Part shown: piece after piece, positions 5,762 through 12,870 of the stretch
Position numbering within the stretch: position 1 is the first letter of the stretch
How the letters are laid out: every line of letters begins with the position of its first letter
Source of the DNA: Planctomycetota bacterium
Lineage (GTDB): Bacteria; Planctomycetota; Phycisphaerae; Phycisphaerales; Phycisphaeraceae
DNA: 34,500 nucleotides
Direction of reading: 5' to 3'
Assembly: GCA_024276075.1 (NCBI GenBank)
Contig: JAJRXX010000040.1
Coordinates: forward strand, 1 to 34,500
Notes under the pieces: model-generated
What the model saw: the letters and a program-made list of their open reading frames with translations, nothing else
What the model was told of the DNA's origin: nothing
Database searches by the model: none
Position numbers and translations under genes: made by a program

Positions 5762-8700
5762 ATGGGTACGATCACCTCAGGTATAGGGCTGGTCAGTGGT
5801 ATCAACACCACTGAGATTATCGATCAGCTCCTGGCGATTGAGGCACGGCCTAGGCAACTCGTCGAACAGCGTAACGCGGTGCTGACTTCAGAGCAGGTCG
5901 CCTTTCAGAACATCAACGCCAAGCTCCTGGTATTGAAGCTGTCAGCCAACTCCTTTGTAACCAACCGAACCTTCAGTACGACCTCATCGGCAAGCTCAGA
6001 CGAAACGGTGCTGACCGCTTCGAGCGGAACCAGCGCAGTGCCAGGGACCTACGATTTTACGATTGATCGGCTCGTTAGCTCACAACAGGTAATCACAGGC
6101 GGCTTTACAGACCAAAACACCACGGCCATCGCGTCTGCGGGAGGGACCCTCACGTTTGAGTTTGGCGATGCCCGGCTCGACACCGAAACACAATTAAGCG
6201 ATCTCAACGGCGGCGTAGGCGTGACACGCGGAAAAATACAGATCACAGACCGATCGGGAACATCCGCAGTGGTAGACCTCAGCAAAGCACTGACGGTCGA
6301 CGACGTGCTCAACACGATCAACAACACCAGCGGGGTCAGCGTAACAGCGAGCGTGGAAAACGACGGATTCAAGCTCGTGGATACCAGCGGTGGCGGAGGC
6401 ACGCTGTCAGTCGCCGACGTCAATGCCAGCGGCACGACCGCGACCCTGGGACTCGGTGTCGCTGCGGTGGGCAATACTCTCACCGGCTCACAGGTCAACC
6501 GCCTTGGCGCCAAGACAAGCCTCAGCGCGCTCAACGACAACAACGGTATACGCATACGCACAGGCATCGATGACTTCCAGATAACGCGACGCGACGGCAC
6601 CACCTTTAACGTCAACCTCGACGGTTCCACCACACTCGATGACGTGATCAACACGATCAATACCGCTTCGGGCGGCAGCGTCACCGCTAGCGTCGATAGC
6701 GCGGGCACCGGTCTACAACTGATCGACACCTCGGTCAGCAACGGCACAATCCTCCAAGTCACAGCACTAAACAGCTCCAACGCGGCCCTGGACCTGGGCA
6801 TCCTCACCACCGACGGTGACGACGACGGCACGCTCCTGGGCTCACGAGCACTGTCAGGGTTCAACACCAGATTGATCAAATCACTCAACGGCGGATCGGG
6901 CGTCACCACCTTGGGCACGGTCGACATCACCAACCGCACCGGCGCCACCACGGGTGTGGACCTGTCGTCAGCTACGAGCGTCGCAGATGTGATATCGCTA
7001 ATTAATAATGCCGGCGCAGGCGTCACCGCGTCCCTCAACAACGCCGGTAACGGGCTGCTGCTAACCGACACCACTGGCAGCACCACGTCGAACCTGATCG
7101 TCGCTGACAACACCGGCACCGCCGCGGTGGACCTGAACCTAGCAGGCTCAGTAGCAGCCACATCAATCGACTCGGGAAACCTTCAACTACAGTACATCTC
7201 CGAGGCGACCAGGCTGGCGGCACTCAACGGTGGGCAGGGCATCGCCAGCGGCAAGTTCACCATCACCGACTCCAACGGGCTAACAAGCACCGTTGATCTG
7301 ACCCAAGGCGAGACCACGATCCAGGAAGTGATCAACGAGATCAACAGCCGTGGCTTGGCGATCAACGCTCAGATCAACAACAACGGCGACGGCATCCTTA
7401 TCCAAGACACCGGCGCCGGCGTATCGGCGCTGAAGATAGAAGAGGCCGGATCGAGCACCGCACGCGATCTAGGCATCCTCGGCGAAGCGACCACGCCCGG
7501 GAGCGATTTAGTCGGCAGCTTTGAAAAGACCCTTTCGATCGCCAGCGTTCAGGCCCTCACAGGGGCAACCGCTCTGAGCACGCTCAACGGGGGGGACGGC
7601 GTAAACATCTCGTCCGGCGTCGATGACTTCACCATCATCACCCGCGACGGTGCGACTCATCAAATTAATCTCGACGGATCAACGACGATCACCGATGTGA
7701 TCAACTCCATCAACACCGCCACCGGCGGGTCCGTCACCGCTACGATCAACGCGCTTACCACAGGCTTGAAAATCACCGACAACACCGCGGGTGTCTCCAC
7801 CTTCACCATCGCCACGGCAAACAACTCCACCGCGGCTACCGATCTGGGTATTGTGGCAAGCGACGACGATGGCGATGGTATCATCAACGGCAGCACCATC
7901 GTGGAGACCACCACGCTTCAAGACTTGGTCGATCAGGTCAATGCGCTGGGTGTCGACGTCAGGGCTACGATCATCAACGATGGCTCGGCCAACACGCCGT
8001 TTCGCCTGAGCCTCCAGAGCACCAAATCGGGTAAAGCCGGTGAGTTTATCTTCGACGACGGCGGACTAGGCTTTGGAGCTACCACACTCGTCGAAGCGCA
8101 GAACGCGGTGGTCTTTTTCGGATCGCCCGATCCCGCCAAGGGTATCGCCATTACGTCCTCGACGAACACGCTTGACTCGGTGATCCCCAGCGCCACCATC
8201 GACCTAAAAAGCGCCAGCACCAGTTCTGTACAGGTCACGATCACCCGTGACGACAACGCGATCGTCGACGCGGCCAGGCGATTCGTCACCGACTTTAACT
8301 CCCTAAACGATACGCTCACCGAACTAGACAGCTTCAACGCCGAGACCGAAGAACGCGGTCTGCTGCTGGGGGATTCGACTATCGCCTCGATACGTTCGAC
8401 GCTATTCAGGCTCATCAACGGCCGAAACTCAGACCTAACCAGCCAATTCAGAACGCTCGCACAGGTCGGCATTACGGTGGGCGGCGGCTCGCGCCTCCAG
8501 TTTAATGAGACCAAATTCCGTAGCGCTTTTACAGCCGACTCCGACGCCGTCGAGCAGCTATTCACGTTTAAGGAAACCTCGACGGACGCAACCACCGGCG
8601 AGGTCACGCTGCTCAAGGGGGGCATCCTCCCACGAATCGACGATCTATTAAACAATCTCACCGACCCACTCACGGGCCTTCTGCAAGGCCGTGTCAGTTC

Positions 8701-8928: not shown

Positions 8929-9055
8929 TAGAACCGGTTTCAAAAACCCTCTCCCCTCCAGGGGAGAGGTTGGGTGAGGGGTGAAAGCCCCGCAAATCAT
9001 GAACACACGACCCTACCCCTCCCTGACAGGGAGGGGAGTTATGAAACCGGTTCTA
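8929..9055. repeat. Repeat element A, copy 1 (palindromic, MITE-like)
   Basis: A 127-bp non-coding element with perfect 14-bp terminal inverted repeats, TAGAACCGGTTTCA at 8929-8942 and TGAAACCGGTTCTA at 9042-9055. Inside are two hairpins, CTCTCCCC-TCCA-GGGGAGAG and CCCTCC-CTGACA-GGGAGG. A second, inverted copy lies at 22118-22251. It starts 38 bp after the fliD stop and its final TA is also the first TA of element B copy 1. It has no transposase. Confidence 0.8.
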
Positions 9056-9179
9056 AAGCAACTGGCGTCAATATTTTCCATCTTGATTGGATCGTAGGTG
9101 TAACAAACATCTGTATTTCACGGCTTGCAAGCAAGCCGTGCCACCCGGTCAATGAAGATTAATGACGCCAATTGCTCTA
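9054..9179 (+). repeat. Repeat element B, copy 1
   Basis: A 126-bp element with terminal inverted repeats (TAAAGCAACTGGCGTCAAT at the left, ATTGACGCC-like ATTAATGACGCCAATTGCTC at the right) and an internal 10-bp-stem hairpin CACGGCTTGC-AA-GCAAGCCGTG at 9119-9140. An inverted copy at 11288-11413 differs at about nine positions by hand alignment. The last bases, CTA at 9177-9179, are the complement of the ilvB stop codon. TA at both ends recalls elements that insert at TA, but no transposase or clear target duplication proves this. Confidence 0.85.
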
Positions 9180-10958
9180 GTCGAAATTCCCCAAGACCAT
9201 GTCGTCGACTGTCTTACCAGCCGGAAGCATGGGGTAGACGTGCTCGTGTTTCTCGACCACCGCGTCGAGCACCGCCGGCCCATCGTACGCCAGGAAGTCT
9301 TGCATCACCTTCGGCAGATCAGCTTTCTTGGTGCAACGAAAGCCTTTGCAGTTCATCGCATCAGCCAGGGCCACAAACTTAGGATTGTGCATTTCAGTGT
9401 GGCTGTAGCGTTCCTCATAAAAAAGGTCCTGCCACTGCTTGACCATGCCCTGGAAGTCGTTGTTGAGGATGATCGTCTTAGCGGCGACACCGTACTGCGC
9501 AGCCGTGACCATCTCCATACAGGTCATACAAAACGACCCGTCGCCGTCGATGTTCACCACGGTCTTGTCGGGCCGACCGATCTTCGCGCCGATCGATGCG
9601 GGCACACCGAAGCCCATGGTGCCCAAGCCGCCTGACGTGATCAGTTGTCGTGGGTGGCGGAAGTTGTAGAACTGCGCAGCCCACATCTGGTGCTGCCCCA
9701 CGCCGGTAGCGATGATCGCGTCGCCTTGGGTCTGACGGTACAGCTCCTCAATGACCGCCTGCGGCTTCATATGAAACTCGCGTTGATCGTCTTTGTATCG
9801 GAACGGGTGCTCGGTCTTCCACCCGTTGACGCAGGCCAGCCAATCACCGCGGTCCTGTTTTTCGAGTAACGGCAGCAGCAGCTCAAGATTTTTGCGTGCG
9901 TCACCCTCGACGCCGATGGTGACGGGCACGGATTTGTTGATATTCTCTGGCGCGATGTCGAAGTGGATAATCCCGCCTCGACCTTCACGCTCAGCAGCGC
10001 GAGCGCCCGGGGCAAATTTTTCTACATTACCCGTCACACGATCGTCAAAGCGTGCACCGACAGCGATAACGCAGTCGGTATCGCGCATAGCCCAGTTGGC
10101 GTACGCCGAGCCGTGCATGCCCAACATGTGCACACTCAACGGCGATGTTTCGTCAAACGCGCCAAGCCCCTGGAGCGTCGTGGTCACGGGAATGCTGGCC
10201 CCTTCGGCACACCGACGCAAAACCTCGTGCGCCCCGGCTAGGATCACGCCCTGCCCACAGTAAAAAAGCGGACGCTGTGCCCGGTTGATCATCTCGGCAG
10301 CACGCTCGATCTCGGTGGAGGTGCCCAACTCGCGGGTGTGGTACCCGGGTAAGTGGACCTGATCGGACACCGGCTCATTGAGGACCGTGGCGGTGATGTC
10401 TTTGGGTAGGTCAACGAGCACGGGGCCGGGACGCCCTGTGGTGGCGATGTGAAACGCCTCGTTGATCCGCCTGGGGATGTCACGGACGTCCTTGATCAGC
10501 ACGTTCCACTTCGTACACGGGCGGGTGATGCCGGTGACGTCGGCTTCCTGAAAAGCATCGGTACCGATCGCTGAAGTCGCGACCTGCCCGGAAAAAACAA
10601 CGATCGGCGTGCCGTCCATCAGCGCGTCTTGCAACGCCGTGACGGTATTCGTCGCGCCCGGGCCCGAAGTCACCAGCACGACGCCAGGCTTCCCGGTAGC
10701 CCGTGCATAACCCTCAGCCATGTGACCGGCGCCTTGCTCATGACGCGTGAGCACAAACTGAAAATGCGGGCTCTTGTAGATCGCGTCAAAGACCGGCAAG
10801 ATCGCGCCTCCGGGGTATCCGAAGACGTGTTTCACCTCGTGTTCACGGATCAACTCGTGAAAAATCTGTGCCCCGGTCAACCCGACGAAACGATCGGTGA
10901 GGTGACTATCGTTGCGGAAATGGATATCACGGGTATGGAGGCTTTGCTTCTTGCGCAT
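9177..10958 (-). CDS. ilvB: Acetolactate synthase, large (catalytic) subunit
   Basis: 593 aa from the ATG at 10958. The frame is open further upstream to a GTG at 11054, but homology begins only after HLTDRFVGLTGAQIF, and an AGGA block precedes this ATG. The enzyme joins two pyruvates to acetolactate (or pyruvate and 2-ketobutyrate), the first step of valine, leucine and isoleucine synthesis, with thiamine diphosphate, Mg and FAD. Visible signs are the catalytic glutamate in TRHEQGAGHMAEGYAR (E74), the GPGATN loop, RFDDRVTG, and the cofactor motif GDGSF (472-476) to LNNDFQGMV (498-506). No regulatory ilvN or ilvC follows, unlike in many bacteria. The stop codon is formed by the end of repeat element B copy 1. 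Expression probably starts at 11217 and passes a leader peptide (11127-11216). Confidence 0.95.
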   Translation of the reverse strand: MRKKQSLHTRDIHFRNDSHLTDRFVGLTGAQIFHELIREHEVKHVFGYPGGAILPVFDAIYKSPHFQFVLTRHEQGAGHMAEGYARATGKPGVVLVTSGPGATNTVTALQDALMDGTPIVVFSGQVATSAIGTDAFQEADVTGITRPCTKWNVLIKDVRDIPRRINEAFHIATTGRPGPVLVDLPKDITATVLNEPVSDQVHLPGYHTRELGTSTEIERAAEMINRAQRPLFYCGQGVILAGAHEVLRRCAEGASIPVTTTLQGLGAFDETSPLSVHMLGMHGSAYANWAMRDTDCVIAVGARFDDRVTGNVEKFAPGARAAEREGRGGIIHFDIAPENINKSVPVTIGVEGDARKNLELLLPLLEKQDRGDWLACVNGWKTEHPFRYKDDQREFHMKPQAVIEELYRQTQGDAIIATGVGQHQMWAAQFYNFRHPRQLITSGGLGTMGFGVPASIGAKIGRPDKTVVNIDGDGSFCMTCMEMVTAAQYGVAAKTIILNNDFQGMVKQWQDLFYEERYSHTEMHNPKFVALADAMNCKGFRCTKKADLPKVMQDFLAYDGPAVLDAVVEKHEHVYPMLPAGKTVDDMVLGNFD

Positions 10959-11070
10959 CGCAGCAGGTCCTGTAAATTGATTATAGCCCGAATCAACCCA
11001 ACAAAATTTCACGCGGCACAAGCCATGAAACATGCTATCCCGCAGGGCACGCACCGAGCATCGAAAACGT

Positions 11071-11141
11071 AAAGATTAAAGATAGCGATAGTCGCTTACA
11101 ACAGGCAGCGGGTGCGGGCCATCCGCTCACCTAACAGCGAC
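11071..11141 (-). promoter_or_regulatory. Candidate attenuator of ilvB (alternative hairpins)
   Basis: On the minus strand GTCGCT (11141-11136, inside the leader peptide's Val-Ala codons) can pair with AGCGAC (11096-11091), with an inner stem AGCGG/CCGCT. The same AGCGA can instead pair with TCGCT (11088-11084), followed by ATCTTTAATCTTT. A ribosome finishing the leader would cover the first arm and favour the second, terminator-like hairpin. That hairpin has only 5 bp, so it is weak; attenuation is inference. Confidence 0.4.
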
Positions 11142-11216
11142 CGTAGCCGAATTGGCCACCGGCAACGCTAGCAGGAGGGGCAAAACAAGAAACAATATGC
11201 ACAAGGCTTGAAACAT
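11127..11216 (-). CDS. Putative ilvB leader peptide, rich in Leu/Val/Ile
   Basis: 29 codons from ATG 11216 to TGA 11127. The product begins MFQALCILFL and continues with VLPLLLALP and VANSATVAVR: eight Leu, four Val and one Ile out of 29. It lies 168 bases upstream of ilvB on the same strand. Biosynthetic ilv and leu operons of many bacteria carry such peptides, in which ribosome stalling at branched-chain codons controls termination. The predicted -10 box ends only seven bases before the ATG, so the message would be leaderless or nearly so. A hydrophobic signal-peptide-like chance frame is the main alternative. Confidence 0.5.
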   Translation of the reverse strand: MFQALCILFLVLPLLLALPVANSATVAVR

Positions 11217-11223
11217 CGATAGT

Positions 11224-11253
11224 AGTATACGATTCGCAACCACCCACAGTCAA
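11224..11253 (-). promoter_or_regulatory. Sigma-70 promoter of ilvB leader
   Basis: Minus strand TTGACT (11253-11248), an 18-base spacer, and TATACT (11229-11224). The expected start, about 11217, falls at the ATG of the leader peptide. It lies 34 bp inside element B copy 2. A second -10-like TATAAT occurs close to the ilvB start (about 10980) but without a good -35. Confidence 0.65.
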
Positions 11254-11287: not shown

Positions 11288-11413
11288 TAGAGCAACTGGC
11301 GTCATTAATCTTCATTGACCGGGTGGCACGGCTTGCTTGCAAGCCGTGAAATACTGATGTCTGTTACACCTGCGATCCAATCAAGATAGAGAATATTAAC
11401 GCCAATTGCTCTA
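11288..11413 (-). repeat. Repeat element B, copy 2 (inverted)
   Basis: 126 bp, with TAGAGCAACTGGCGTCATT at one end and GCCAATTGCTCTA at the other, and the same CACGGCTTGC hairpin inside. It is the reverse complement of copy 1 with about nine differences. The two copies enclose ilvB, its leader and its promoter. It ends 21 bp after the stop of the anti-sigma gene. Confidence 0.85.
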
Positions 11414-11434: not shown

Positions 11435-12307
11435 TCAGCCGGTGGTACGTATCCGTTTCGCCGCGCTATCGACCCGGTCAAATGAATTGCCTACGAGGTA
11501 GTAGATCATCCCGCCCTGTCGCCAGAAGATCAGCGGGTTGGCAGCGTCCGATCCGGCCACAGCGTAGAACCGGTCCGATGAGATGTCGGGTGAGCCGGCA
11601 AACCGACGTATCCACAGGCTCAGCGTGTCGTCTCCGGTGGGGTCGTCCTTGGCACGGTAGATCAGGTGCACCGACTTGTCGCCGGGGACGTTGCACTCCC
11701 CCACCGCTTGAAATTCATACCCAAGACTCGACAAGTCCAGCCCCATCGCCGCGGGTCCGCCCAGAAACTGCGCCAACGCTGGGGGCAATTCCTCAATGTT
11801 CTGCGGGAACAGTTCCACGCGAGCGAGCTTCTCGATCTTGCGACTGCAAATGGTGTGACGACTGACAAACCGGATGTAATTCGTATCGGAAATGGTCGAA
11901 CCCGATTTGTTGGCAACGCTCAGTACCGCTAATGCCGAGATGAAAAAGACCGCCGCCGCTATCAGCGGCACCCATCGGCCAATACGCGCCAAGACCGATC
12001 TGCCTCCACCCATGGCCTGCTGCGTTGCGTCGCTGCGGAACCGGTCGCCCTGATCCGCATCAAGCGTCACGGTCTGGGCCAACTGCTCGATCCGTTTCCG
12101 CAACGAGTCGGGTACAACGGGGGTGTCTTGATCTAAGGCACGCTTCACAGCCTGGTGCAACTGCTGCTGATGCATCACCCGCCGAGTGGTGGTCGGGTTC
12201 ATGGCCATGTGCTCGAGCACCCGCAGGTTCTGCTCGACGTCGAGCTCGCCGTCGGCAAAAGCATCCAGGTACTTGCGCACTTCGTGTTCGTTAAGTGATT
12301 CAGCCAT
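11435..12307 (-). CDS. Membrane anti-sigma factor (partner of the ECF sigma)
   Basis: 290 aa, 14 bp downstream of the ECF sigma gene, so cotranscribed. The cytoplasmic N-terminus (LNEHEVRKYLDAFADGELDVEQNLRVLEHM) is the helical start typical of anti-sigma factors (D-x-ELD and a following helix), but the HxxxCxxC zinc motif is missing. A single membrane helix is at about 110-130 (VPLIAAAVFFISALAVLSVA). The rest, about 160 residues, is outside the membrane and would sense the signal; it contains several cysteines (TIC, GEC) and an aromatic C-terminus (FWRQGGMIYYLVG). Binding to and release of the neighbouring sigma factor is inferred from family and position; the signal is unknown. Confidence 0.8.
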   Translation of the reverse strand: MAESLNEHEVRKYLDAFADGELDVEQNLRVLEHMAMNPTTTRRVMHQQQLHQAVKRALDQDTPVVPDSLRKRIEQLAQTVTLDADQGDRFRSDATQQAMGGGRSVLARIGRWVPLIAAAVFFISALAVLSVANKSGSTISDTNYIRFVSRHTICSRKIEKLARVELFPQNIEELPPALAQFLGGPAAMGLDLSSLGYEFQAVGECNVPGDKSVHLIYRAKDDPTGDDTLSLWIRRFAGSPDISSDRFYAVAGSDAANPLIFWRQGGMIYYLVGNSFDRVDSAAKRIRTTG

Positions 12308-12321
12308 CGCACAAACCCATG

Positions 12322-12870
12322 CTACTTGTCGATCGAAATACCTTTCTCCGCCGCCAACGCCGCCAACTGCTCGCTGAGGATGGCCCGGGCCCTGTACAGC
12401 CGGCTCATGACCGTGCCCAGCGCAACCTCCAAAATGTCCGCGATCTCCCGGTACTTAAGCCCCTCGATCGCCCAGAGCAAGATCACCTCGCGGTAGTGTG
12501 ACGGGAGCTGCTCGATCGCGTGTTTAAGTCTTTCATCGACCTGTTCCCAGTCCAAGCTCGACAGGTCCCAGCACGGGCTCGCCGCGTCGAGATCGTTCGC
12601 AACCGCTTCGTTCTGCAGGTCCTCGACCAGCGTCGGCTCCCGCCGTTTCTTGCCGACCCGAGTGTAAAAAGCGTTGTGCAGAATCTTGAATAGCCAAGGC
12701 TTGATCCCCCTTTCACGCAGCTCAAACGTGTTCTCCGCCTTAAACGCCCGAAGAAAGGTCTCTTGCGTCAGGTCCGCCGCTTCGTCGGGATGCCTCGATA
12801 GGTGCATCGCCATGCGATAGACCGAATCGAGCTCCGCAACTGCCATTTGGCGGAATGCCTGCGAGTCCAC
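12322..12870 (-). CDS. ECF RNA polymerase sigma factor
   Basis: 182 aa, starting with GTG behind a textbook AAGGAGGT (8 bases upstream). Region 2 spans about 10-75 (DEAADLTQETFLRAF for core binding, then KPWLFKILHNAFYTRVGKKRRE). Region 4 spans about 115-165 (IEQLPSHYREVILLWAIEGLKYREIA followed by the recognition helix GTVMSRLYRARAIL). There is no region 1 or 3, as in all extracytoplasmic-function sigma factors. It directs polymerase to a small regulon when released by its anti-sigma partner, the next gene. I found no confident ECF-type promoter upstream, so autoregulation is unproven. Confidence 0.93.
   Translation of the reverse strand: MDSQAFRQMAVAELDSVYRMAMHLSRHPDEAADLTQETFLRAFKAENTFELRERGIKPWLFKILHNAFYTRVGKKRREPTLVEDLQNEAVANDLDAASPCWDLSSLDWEQVDERLKHAIEQLPSHYREVILLWAIEGLKYREIADILEVALGTVMSRLYRARAILSEQLAALAAEKGISIDK

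Follow-up and report, generated by a model that had tools for sequence, protein, structure and literature searches.

The ilvB gene examined here is preceded by a short open reading frame (ORF) that is almost certainly a real leader peptide element, to judge by its sequence and that of its relatives. The ORF ends in conserved valine codons, and a small conserved hairpin starts directly after its stop codon. (The window, as the term is used here, is the whole stretch of DNA that was analyzed: 34,500 nt at the start of a contig of a planctomycete of the family Phycisphaeraceae; coordinates refer to it and are collected in Table 1). Ribosome-mediated attenuation of some kind is likely to act at this valine leader. 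The best reading, to which we assign a probability of about 0.5, is that it is the regulatory 5' leader of ilvB and works as an attenuator, in which the ribosome senses tRNA-Val and Rho may well be the off-switch. The downstream gene encodes the large subunit of a biosynthetic acetolactate synthase, and its nearest records in a similarity search come from Phycisphaeraceae and other Planctomycetota.

Table 1. Positions of the ilvB gene and of the parts of its leader in the window
Feature	Coordinates	Strand	Remarks
Leader promoter	11224..11253	-	TTGACT -35 (11253-11248), 18-nt spacer, TATACT -10 (11229-11224)
Leader ORF, MFQALCILFLVLPLLLALPVANSATVAVR-stop	11127..11216	-	29 codons; probably leaderless; end of the ORF conserved in relatives
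Sensor codons GTC GCT GTT (Val-Ala-Val)	11133..11141	-	Val conserved at first and third positions
Stop-abutting hairpin GCGG-ATGGC-CCGC	11114..11126	-	Covariance-model match 11112-11144, E 1.4e-9
AGCGAC-TA-TCGCT, previously proposed terminator stem	11084..11096	-	Exists; not supported as a functional part
Untranslated spacer, hairpin to ilvB	10959..11113	-	155 nt; C-rich and G-poor in most relatives, weakly so in the window
ilvB, acetolactate synthase large subunit	9177..10958	-	TIGR00118, E 2.6e-236, above cut-off

The leader ORF of the window runs from an ATG at 11216-11214 to a TGA at 11129-11127. Reading of the sequence confirms what a first-pass annotation had noted, that 13 of its 29 codons specify Leu, Val or Ile. 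Short ORFs with Val-rich ends also lie upstream of ilvB in relatives, and share the string Val-x-Val-x-TGA-GCGG-NNGAC-CCGC at the stop codon; the window's version of this element is GTC GCT GTT AGG TGA GCGG ATGGC CCGC. Among 56 sites, the first sensor position is Val in 52 and the third in all 56, the latter having been fixed to GTN by the pattern that picked most of the rows. Val accounts for 190 of the 392 residues encoded by the last seven codons before the pre-stop codon at these sites. Codon choice is also skewed (GTT makes up 39% of the Val codons in these seven positions, versus 5% in the genes that follow). Most of the listed relatives' leaders do not share the first, Leu-rich half of the window's peptide. 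The earlier proposal that a leader peptide would link branched-chain amino acid supply to ilvB gains support from the conserved end of the ORF, and the amino acid should be narrowed to valine.

Valine is very probably the cognate amino acid, since the element stands before ilvB, whose product makes valine, and also before valS, whose product charges tRNA-Val. In pattern and homologue searches together it precedes valS in at least 13 of 41 genomes. Ten of the pattern-search sites (L114-L123) stand before an ORF reading as valyl-tRNA synthetase, and one of these genes was named by family search (TIGR00422 and NF004349, both over their cut-offs); a search with this family-named valS as query recovers the valS loci and adds the leaders L126, L131 and L147. 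The valS of the window's own genome (L153) is without such a leader, and no leader was found by the strict rule at 18 leuS loci. The two genes, ilvB and valS, may form a valine regulon. The placement of the element also bears on the most skeptical explanation, that the ORF arises by chance or specifies a small secreted or membrane peptide of no regulatory role. The window's peptide is indeed hydrophobic and resembles a signal peptide, but what is conserved is the Val codons and the hairpin, before both ilvB and valS, and this explanation is scarcely credible.

The hairpin has a stem of four base pairs (GCGG-NNGAC-CCGC) and follows the stop codon with no gap. The stem is paired in all 52 distinct rows of the alignment, with zero mismatches, and in eight of these rows both sides are changed (C-G to G-C). 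The two-sided change, GGGG/CCCC, is found in valS copies only (9 of the 13 valS leaders have it, the other 4 having GCGG/CCGC) and may trace to one event. Most rows of the alignments (A1/A2) were picked by a pattern in which some of the sensor, stop and stem columns were fixed. The invariance of those columns is therefore in part built in, whereas at the second base pair of the stem the pattern allowed C or G on each side. The first-pass annotation had missed this hairpin, as it had the valS copies. Of the features that it suggested looking for in relatives, conserved Val codons are present, and two-sided stem changes are seen in the GCGG/CCGC hairpin. Folding of the window's leader as a whole is no better than that of shuffled sequence (z 0.14). 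Two other pairings were considered and rejected. Val codons (GGUC) can be drawn paired with the hairpin loop (GACC) in many leaders, but 74.6% of cells are paired in this way versus 74.2% in shuffles, and in a register-free test 217 of 300 permutations are at least as good; an alternative hairpin that would span the stop region, columns 10-13 against 19-22, has 30.3% of its cells paired.

Sequence conservation of the hairpin and stop region exceeds what coding alone would require. This speaks for an explanation in which a protein or small RNA binds the stop-codon hairpin, or in which the hairpin is a processing site, the leader peptide being secondary. The presence of terminal Val codons before two valine genes, which indicates codon reading, argues the other way, and we regard such a binder or processing site as improbable.

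The element is common among close relatives of the gene. Of 50 distinct assessable ilvB loci whose protein is 66% or more identical to the window's, 43 carry it according to a covariance model, itself built from the pattern-picked rows (the 50 exclude 6 records that lack an N-terminus or have insufficient upstream DNA). It is absent from the remaining seven, including the closest relative (L002/L031). By eye, in six of the seven a -10-like box is followed by a short ORF containing Val codons; L023 has none. Among more distant ilvB loci (55-60% identity) the element is found in 0 of 7. A covariance-model search of 392 genomes of the phylum, run with stricter filters that lose weak matches, yields matches at E ≤5e-6 in no families but the window's own and a second one of its order; among the weaker matches outside the order, 0 of the 14 loci inspected have a valine leader.

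The ilvB leader ORF is probably leaderless, judged by the position of its promoter. The predicted start of transcription at the leader ATG, proposed earlier on the strength of TTGACT-N18-TATACT, is supported. Both boxes are present as described, with 7 nt between the -10 box and the ATG. A simple promoter scan finds 1 site in 1.2 kb versus 0.7 in shuffles, which is not significant alone. More telling is the strict motif TTGACN{18,19}TATACTN{6,11}ATG, whose sole match in the 2.88-Mb genome is the ilvB leader, and which has four further matches in 26 relatives, two of them (G005 and G006) just 5' of the ilvB element by position. The leader promoter is counted as significant on the basis of this genome-unique match and the recurrence of the layout in relatives. 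By a loose, best-of rule a -10 box precedes the start codon in 53 of the 56 Val leaders (41/43 for ilvB, 12/13 for valS). A strict leaderless rule (a TANNNT box that agrees with TATAAT at 5 or more of its 6 positions and sits 6-11 nt ahead of an ATG in frame) is passed by 41 of the 56, where the frequency at 8,566 background ATGs predicts 0.34. The same strict rule is passed by 6 of the 18 Ile/Leu leaders considered below.

What had been proposed for the remainder of the leader is classical ilv attenuation, with GTCGCT inside the ORF as antiterminator and AGCGAC/TCGCT as terminator stem. This sequence, with its T-rich tail, is present in the window, and the leuA and ileS genes of the lineage apparently have terminator attenuators. 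Terminator-like sites nevertheless occur at chance level in the window (1 versus 1.5 in shuffles) and show no excess in relatives' Val leaders, whether by scan (1/55 versus 0.8) or by a fold-based test (4/56 versus 2.0 in shuffles). A like test detects terminators upstream of ileS (10/20 versus 0 in shuffles, two of the ten, L219 and L220, being weak and without an Ile leader) and of leuA (12/17 versus 1.3), the stretches compared being 260 nt before the family match for ileS and leuA, and stop codon to gene for the Val leaders. (Gene starts in the terminator and base composition tests are approximate, taken as the first ATG of the open frame). The putative antiterminator segment GTCGCT is the conserved first Val codon and its neighbor. 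The only covarying or above-chance partner found for the Val codons or stop region is the small hairpin, weaker pairings being below the sensitivity of the tests; p ≤0.05 for pairing of the stop region to RNA further 3' is attained in 4 of the 56 Val leaders. Attenuation by an intrinsic terminator is accordingly judged quite improbable, and the ilvB valine leader is probably not a case of classical attenuation in the strict sense.

Eighteen Ile- or Leu-rich leader ORFs upstream of ileS and leuA were examined; their stop codon is TAG in 16. In these leaders the RNA around the stop codon is able to base-pair with the 5' side of the terminator stem, at p ≤0.05 against shuffles in 7 of the 18, and the general claim of such pairing rests partly on arms read by eye. 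In the window's own genome leuA (L196) is preceded by a leader ORF rich in Leu, MKTSGTIRLRNDLLLELLGLGLLRVG-stop, and by a terminator with a U tail; the pairing of the stop region there, considered by itself, stays within chance (p 0.32). Upstream of ileS in relatives, at L216, L217, L218, L224, L233, L234, L236 and L241, a terminator with a U tail follows an Ile-rich leader ORF. These ileS leaders are apparently terminator attenuators for isoleucyl-tRNA synthetase. The leuA and ileS leaders thus resemble the Val leaders in having a leader ORF with cognate codons before the cognate gene, but differ in having U-tailed terminators with which the stop region can pair, neither of which is found in the Val leaders. 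This suggests that two designs coexist in one lineage: attenuation at a terminator for leucine and for isoleucine, and for valine a design that has a stop-codon hairpin and lacks a terminator.

The case for Rho comes from base composition. The 90 nt 3' of the hairpin average 37.5% C and 21.8% G, and C exceeds G in 53 of 56 Val leaders, compared with only 10 of 23 control upstream regions (a small control set). The window's own spacer is barely biased (27.5% C and 25% G on an 80-nt estimate of its extent; this 80-nt estimate served for the composition and terminator tests, and the likelier 155 nt for the pairing and fold tests). A match to Rho is found in 25 of 25 genomes searched, the window's own included, and 24 of these are over the family cut-off. 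A second, weaker Rho-like match occurs in at least 21 of the 25; the copy in the window's own genome (G000:C6) contains one in-frame stop. The composition is suggestive, and it is somewhat short of an even bet that Rho is the off-switch of the valine leader.

The preferred reading, a Rho-assisted attenuator that senses tRNA-Val, would work as follows. Translation of the leader would begin at the very 5' end of the emerging transcript, with RNA polymerase just ahead of the ribosome. With charged tRNA-Val plentiful, the ribosome would reach the stop codon, open the hairpin and leave, exposing C-rich unstructured RNA on which Rho could load, so that transcription would end before ilvB or valS. 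With charged tRNA-Val short, the ribosome would park on the first Val codon with its leading edge at the stop codon, and the hairpin could stay folded because that edge ends there; transcription would continue past the ribosome-occupied leader, Rho action presumably being prevented by the parked ribosome or the folded hairpin. In a model of ilvB1, as set out in the accessible text of PMC13236596, a stalled ribosome hides 26 nt centered on the codon. A footprint of that size on the first Val codon (11141-11139) would cover the leader through the last base of the TGA, leaving the hairpin free; at the stop codon it would cover the hairpin except for its last base. By this geometry the hairpin could report passage of the ribosome over the Val codons. 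As far as the sequence goes, the switch may also have the opposite polarity.

Poly-cysteine leaderless ORF attenuators of mycobacteria are reportedly the subject of work by Canestrari in 2020; in the mycobacterial cysteine attenuators, RNA structure hides the start site of the next gene. In the E. coli tnaC leader, free tryptophan causes the ribosome to arrest at the stop codon. The first of these suggests a different mechanism for the valine leader, namely translational attenuation, in which the element or spacer would hide the region where ilvB or valS begins, until stalling of a ribosome on the Val codons frees that region. The shared layout lends this some plausibility. Leaderless attenuator ORFs for cysteine are known in mycobacteria (PMC9031893); they too are short, and their consecutive cognate codons lie close to the stop codon. 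Against it, the element pairs with its own start region no better than with those of other loci (as well or better in 35 of 100 permutations), and the spacer, which in relatives varies from 41 to 301 nt, is unstructured (mean fold z -0.28 over 54 spacers). Pairing of the element with the spacer is likewise unremarkable (9 of 60 permutations as good). The valine leader therefore differs from the mycobacterial attenuators in its amino acid, and in that hiding of the start site is unsupported; translational attenuation is unlikely, if a little less so than a binder or processing site.

Other known systems are also close to the valine leader. Leader-peptide attenuators of ilvB are known in E. coli and in Actinobacteria (PMC1262725, PMC10272879 and PMC13236596, in their accessible text). 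Those of the latter (Corynebacterium ilvB-II, Mycobacterium ilvB1) also have a leader ORF with branched-chain codons before ilvB; as described in those passages they possess a U-tract terminator and an antiterminator, neither of which was found in the Val leaders, where the element is moreover shared with valS. The ilvB motif of Leptospira resembles the Val leaders in placing Val codons in a leader ORF before ilvB (three or more Val codons in succession, some 70 nt ahead of the main ORF), and is set apart by its description, which in the accessible text of PMC10272879 mentions no stop-abutting hairpin and no valS copy. Rho-dependent leader-peptide systems such as tnaC, named in the accessible text of PMC1262725, share the arrangement of a leader ORF followed by untranslated RNA with no intrinsic terminator. 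They are distinguished by their signal, free tryptophan in the case of tnaC, where charged tRNA-Val is the likely signal at the valine leader, and by the role of Rho, which at the valine leader is putative.

It is tempting, if with somewhat less than even confidence, to see here a distinct attenuator type, defined by the stop-abutting hairpin with its Val-x-Val ribosome position, terminator-less (Rho-type), serving an ilvB/valS valine regulon, existing beside the Leu/Ile terminator attenuators and known to date from the Phycisphaeraceae and one sister family. Rfam, at gathering score, matches only tRNAs in the window and 12 relative loci, and gives nothing relevant near ilvB even when E values as high as 5 are admitted. 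Planctomycetes go unmentioned in the main text, as far as it is accessible, of a survey that covers 50 bacterial genomes (PMC11109978). The literature searched (most subscription papers and all bioRxiv preprints being outside its scope) contains no description of the valine-leader element and, in agreement with the first-pass annotation, no case of ilv attenuation in this lineage. The present analysis suggests ribosome-mediated control of amino acid genes in Planctomycetota, of which that literature likewise describes none. Being short and sharply conserved, and standing ahead of two genes, the element lends itself to small reporters that can test what its 4-bp stop-codon hairpin does.

Several other features lie near the leader. 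TATAAT at 10985-10980 on the minus strand, 21 nt 5' of the ilvB ATG, was read from the sequence (the promoter scan does not report it) and may be an internal promoter that bypasses the leader. Leader and ilvB are flanked by two inverted copies of a 126-bp repeat: a MITE-like element with inverted ends at 11288-11413, just 5' of the leader promoter, and a second copy, inverted and 93% alike, at 9054-9179, which adjoins the 3' side of ilvB. The repeat has at least 40 near-full-length copies in the genome, the window's two included (40 scored among 210 candidates). Further upstream on the same (minus) strand lie a zinc-finger anti-sigma-like gene (11435-12307) and an ECF sigma factor gene (12322-12870).
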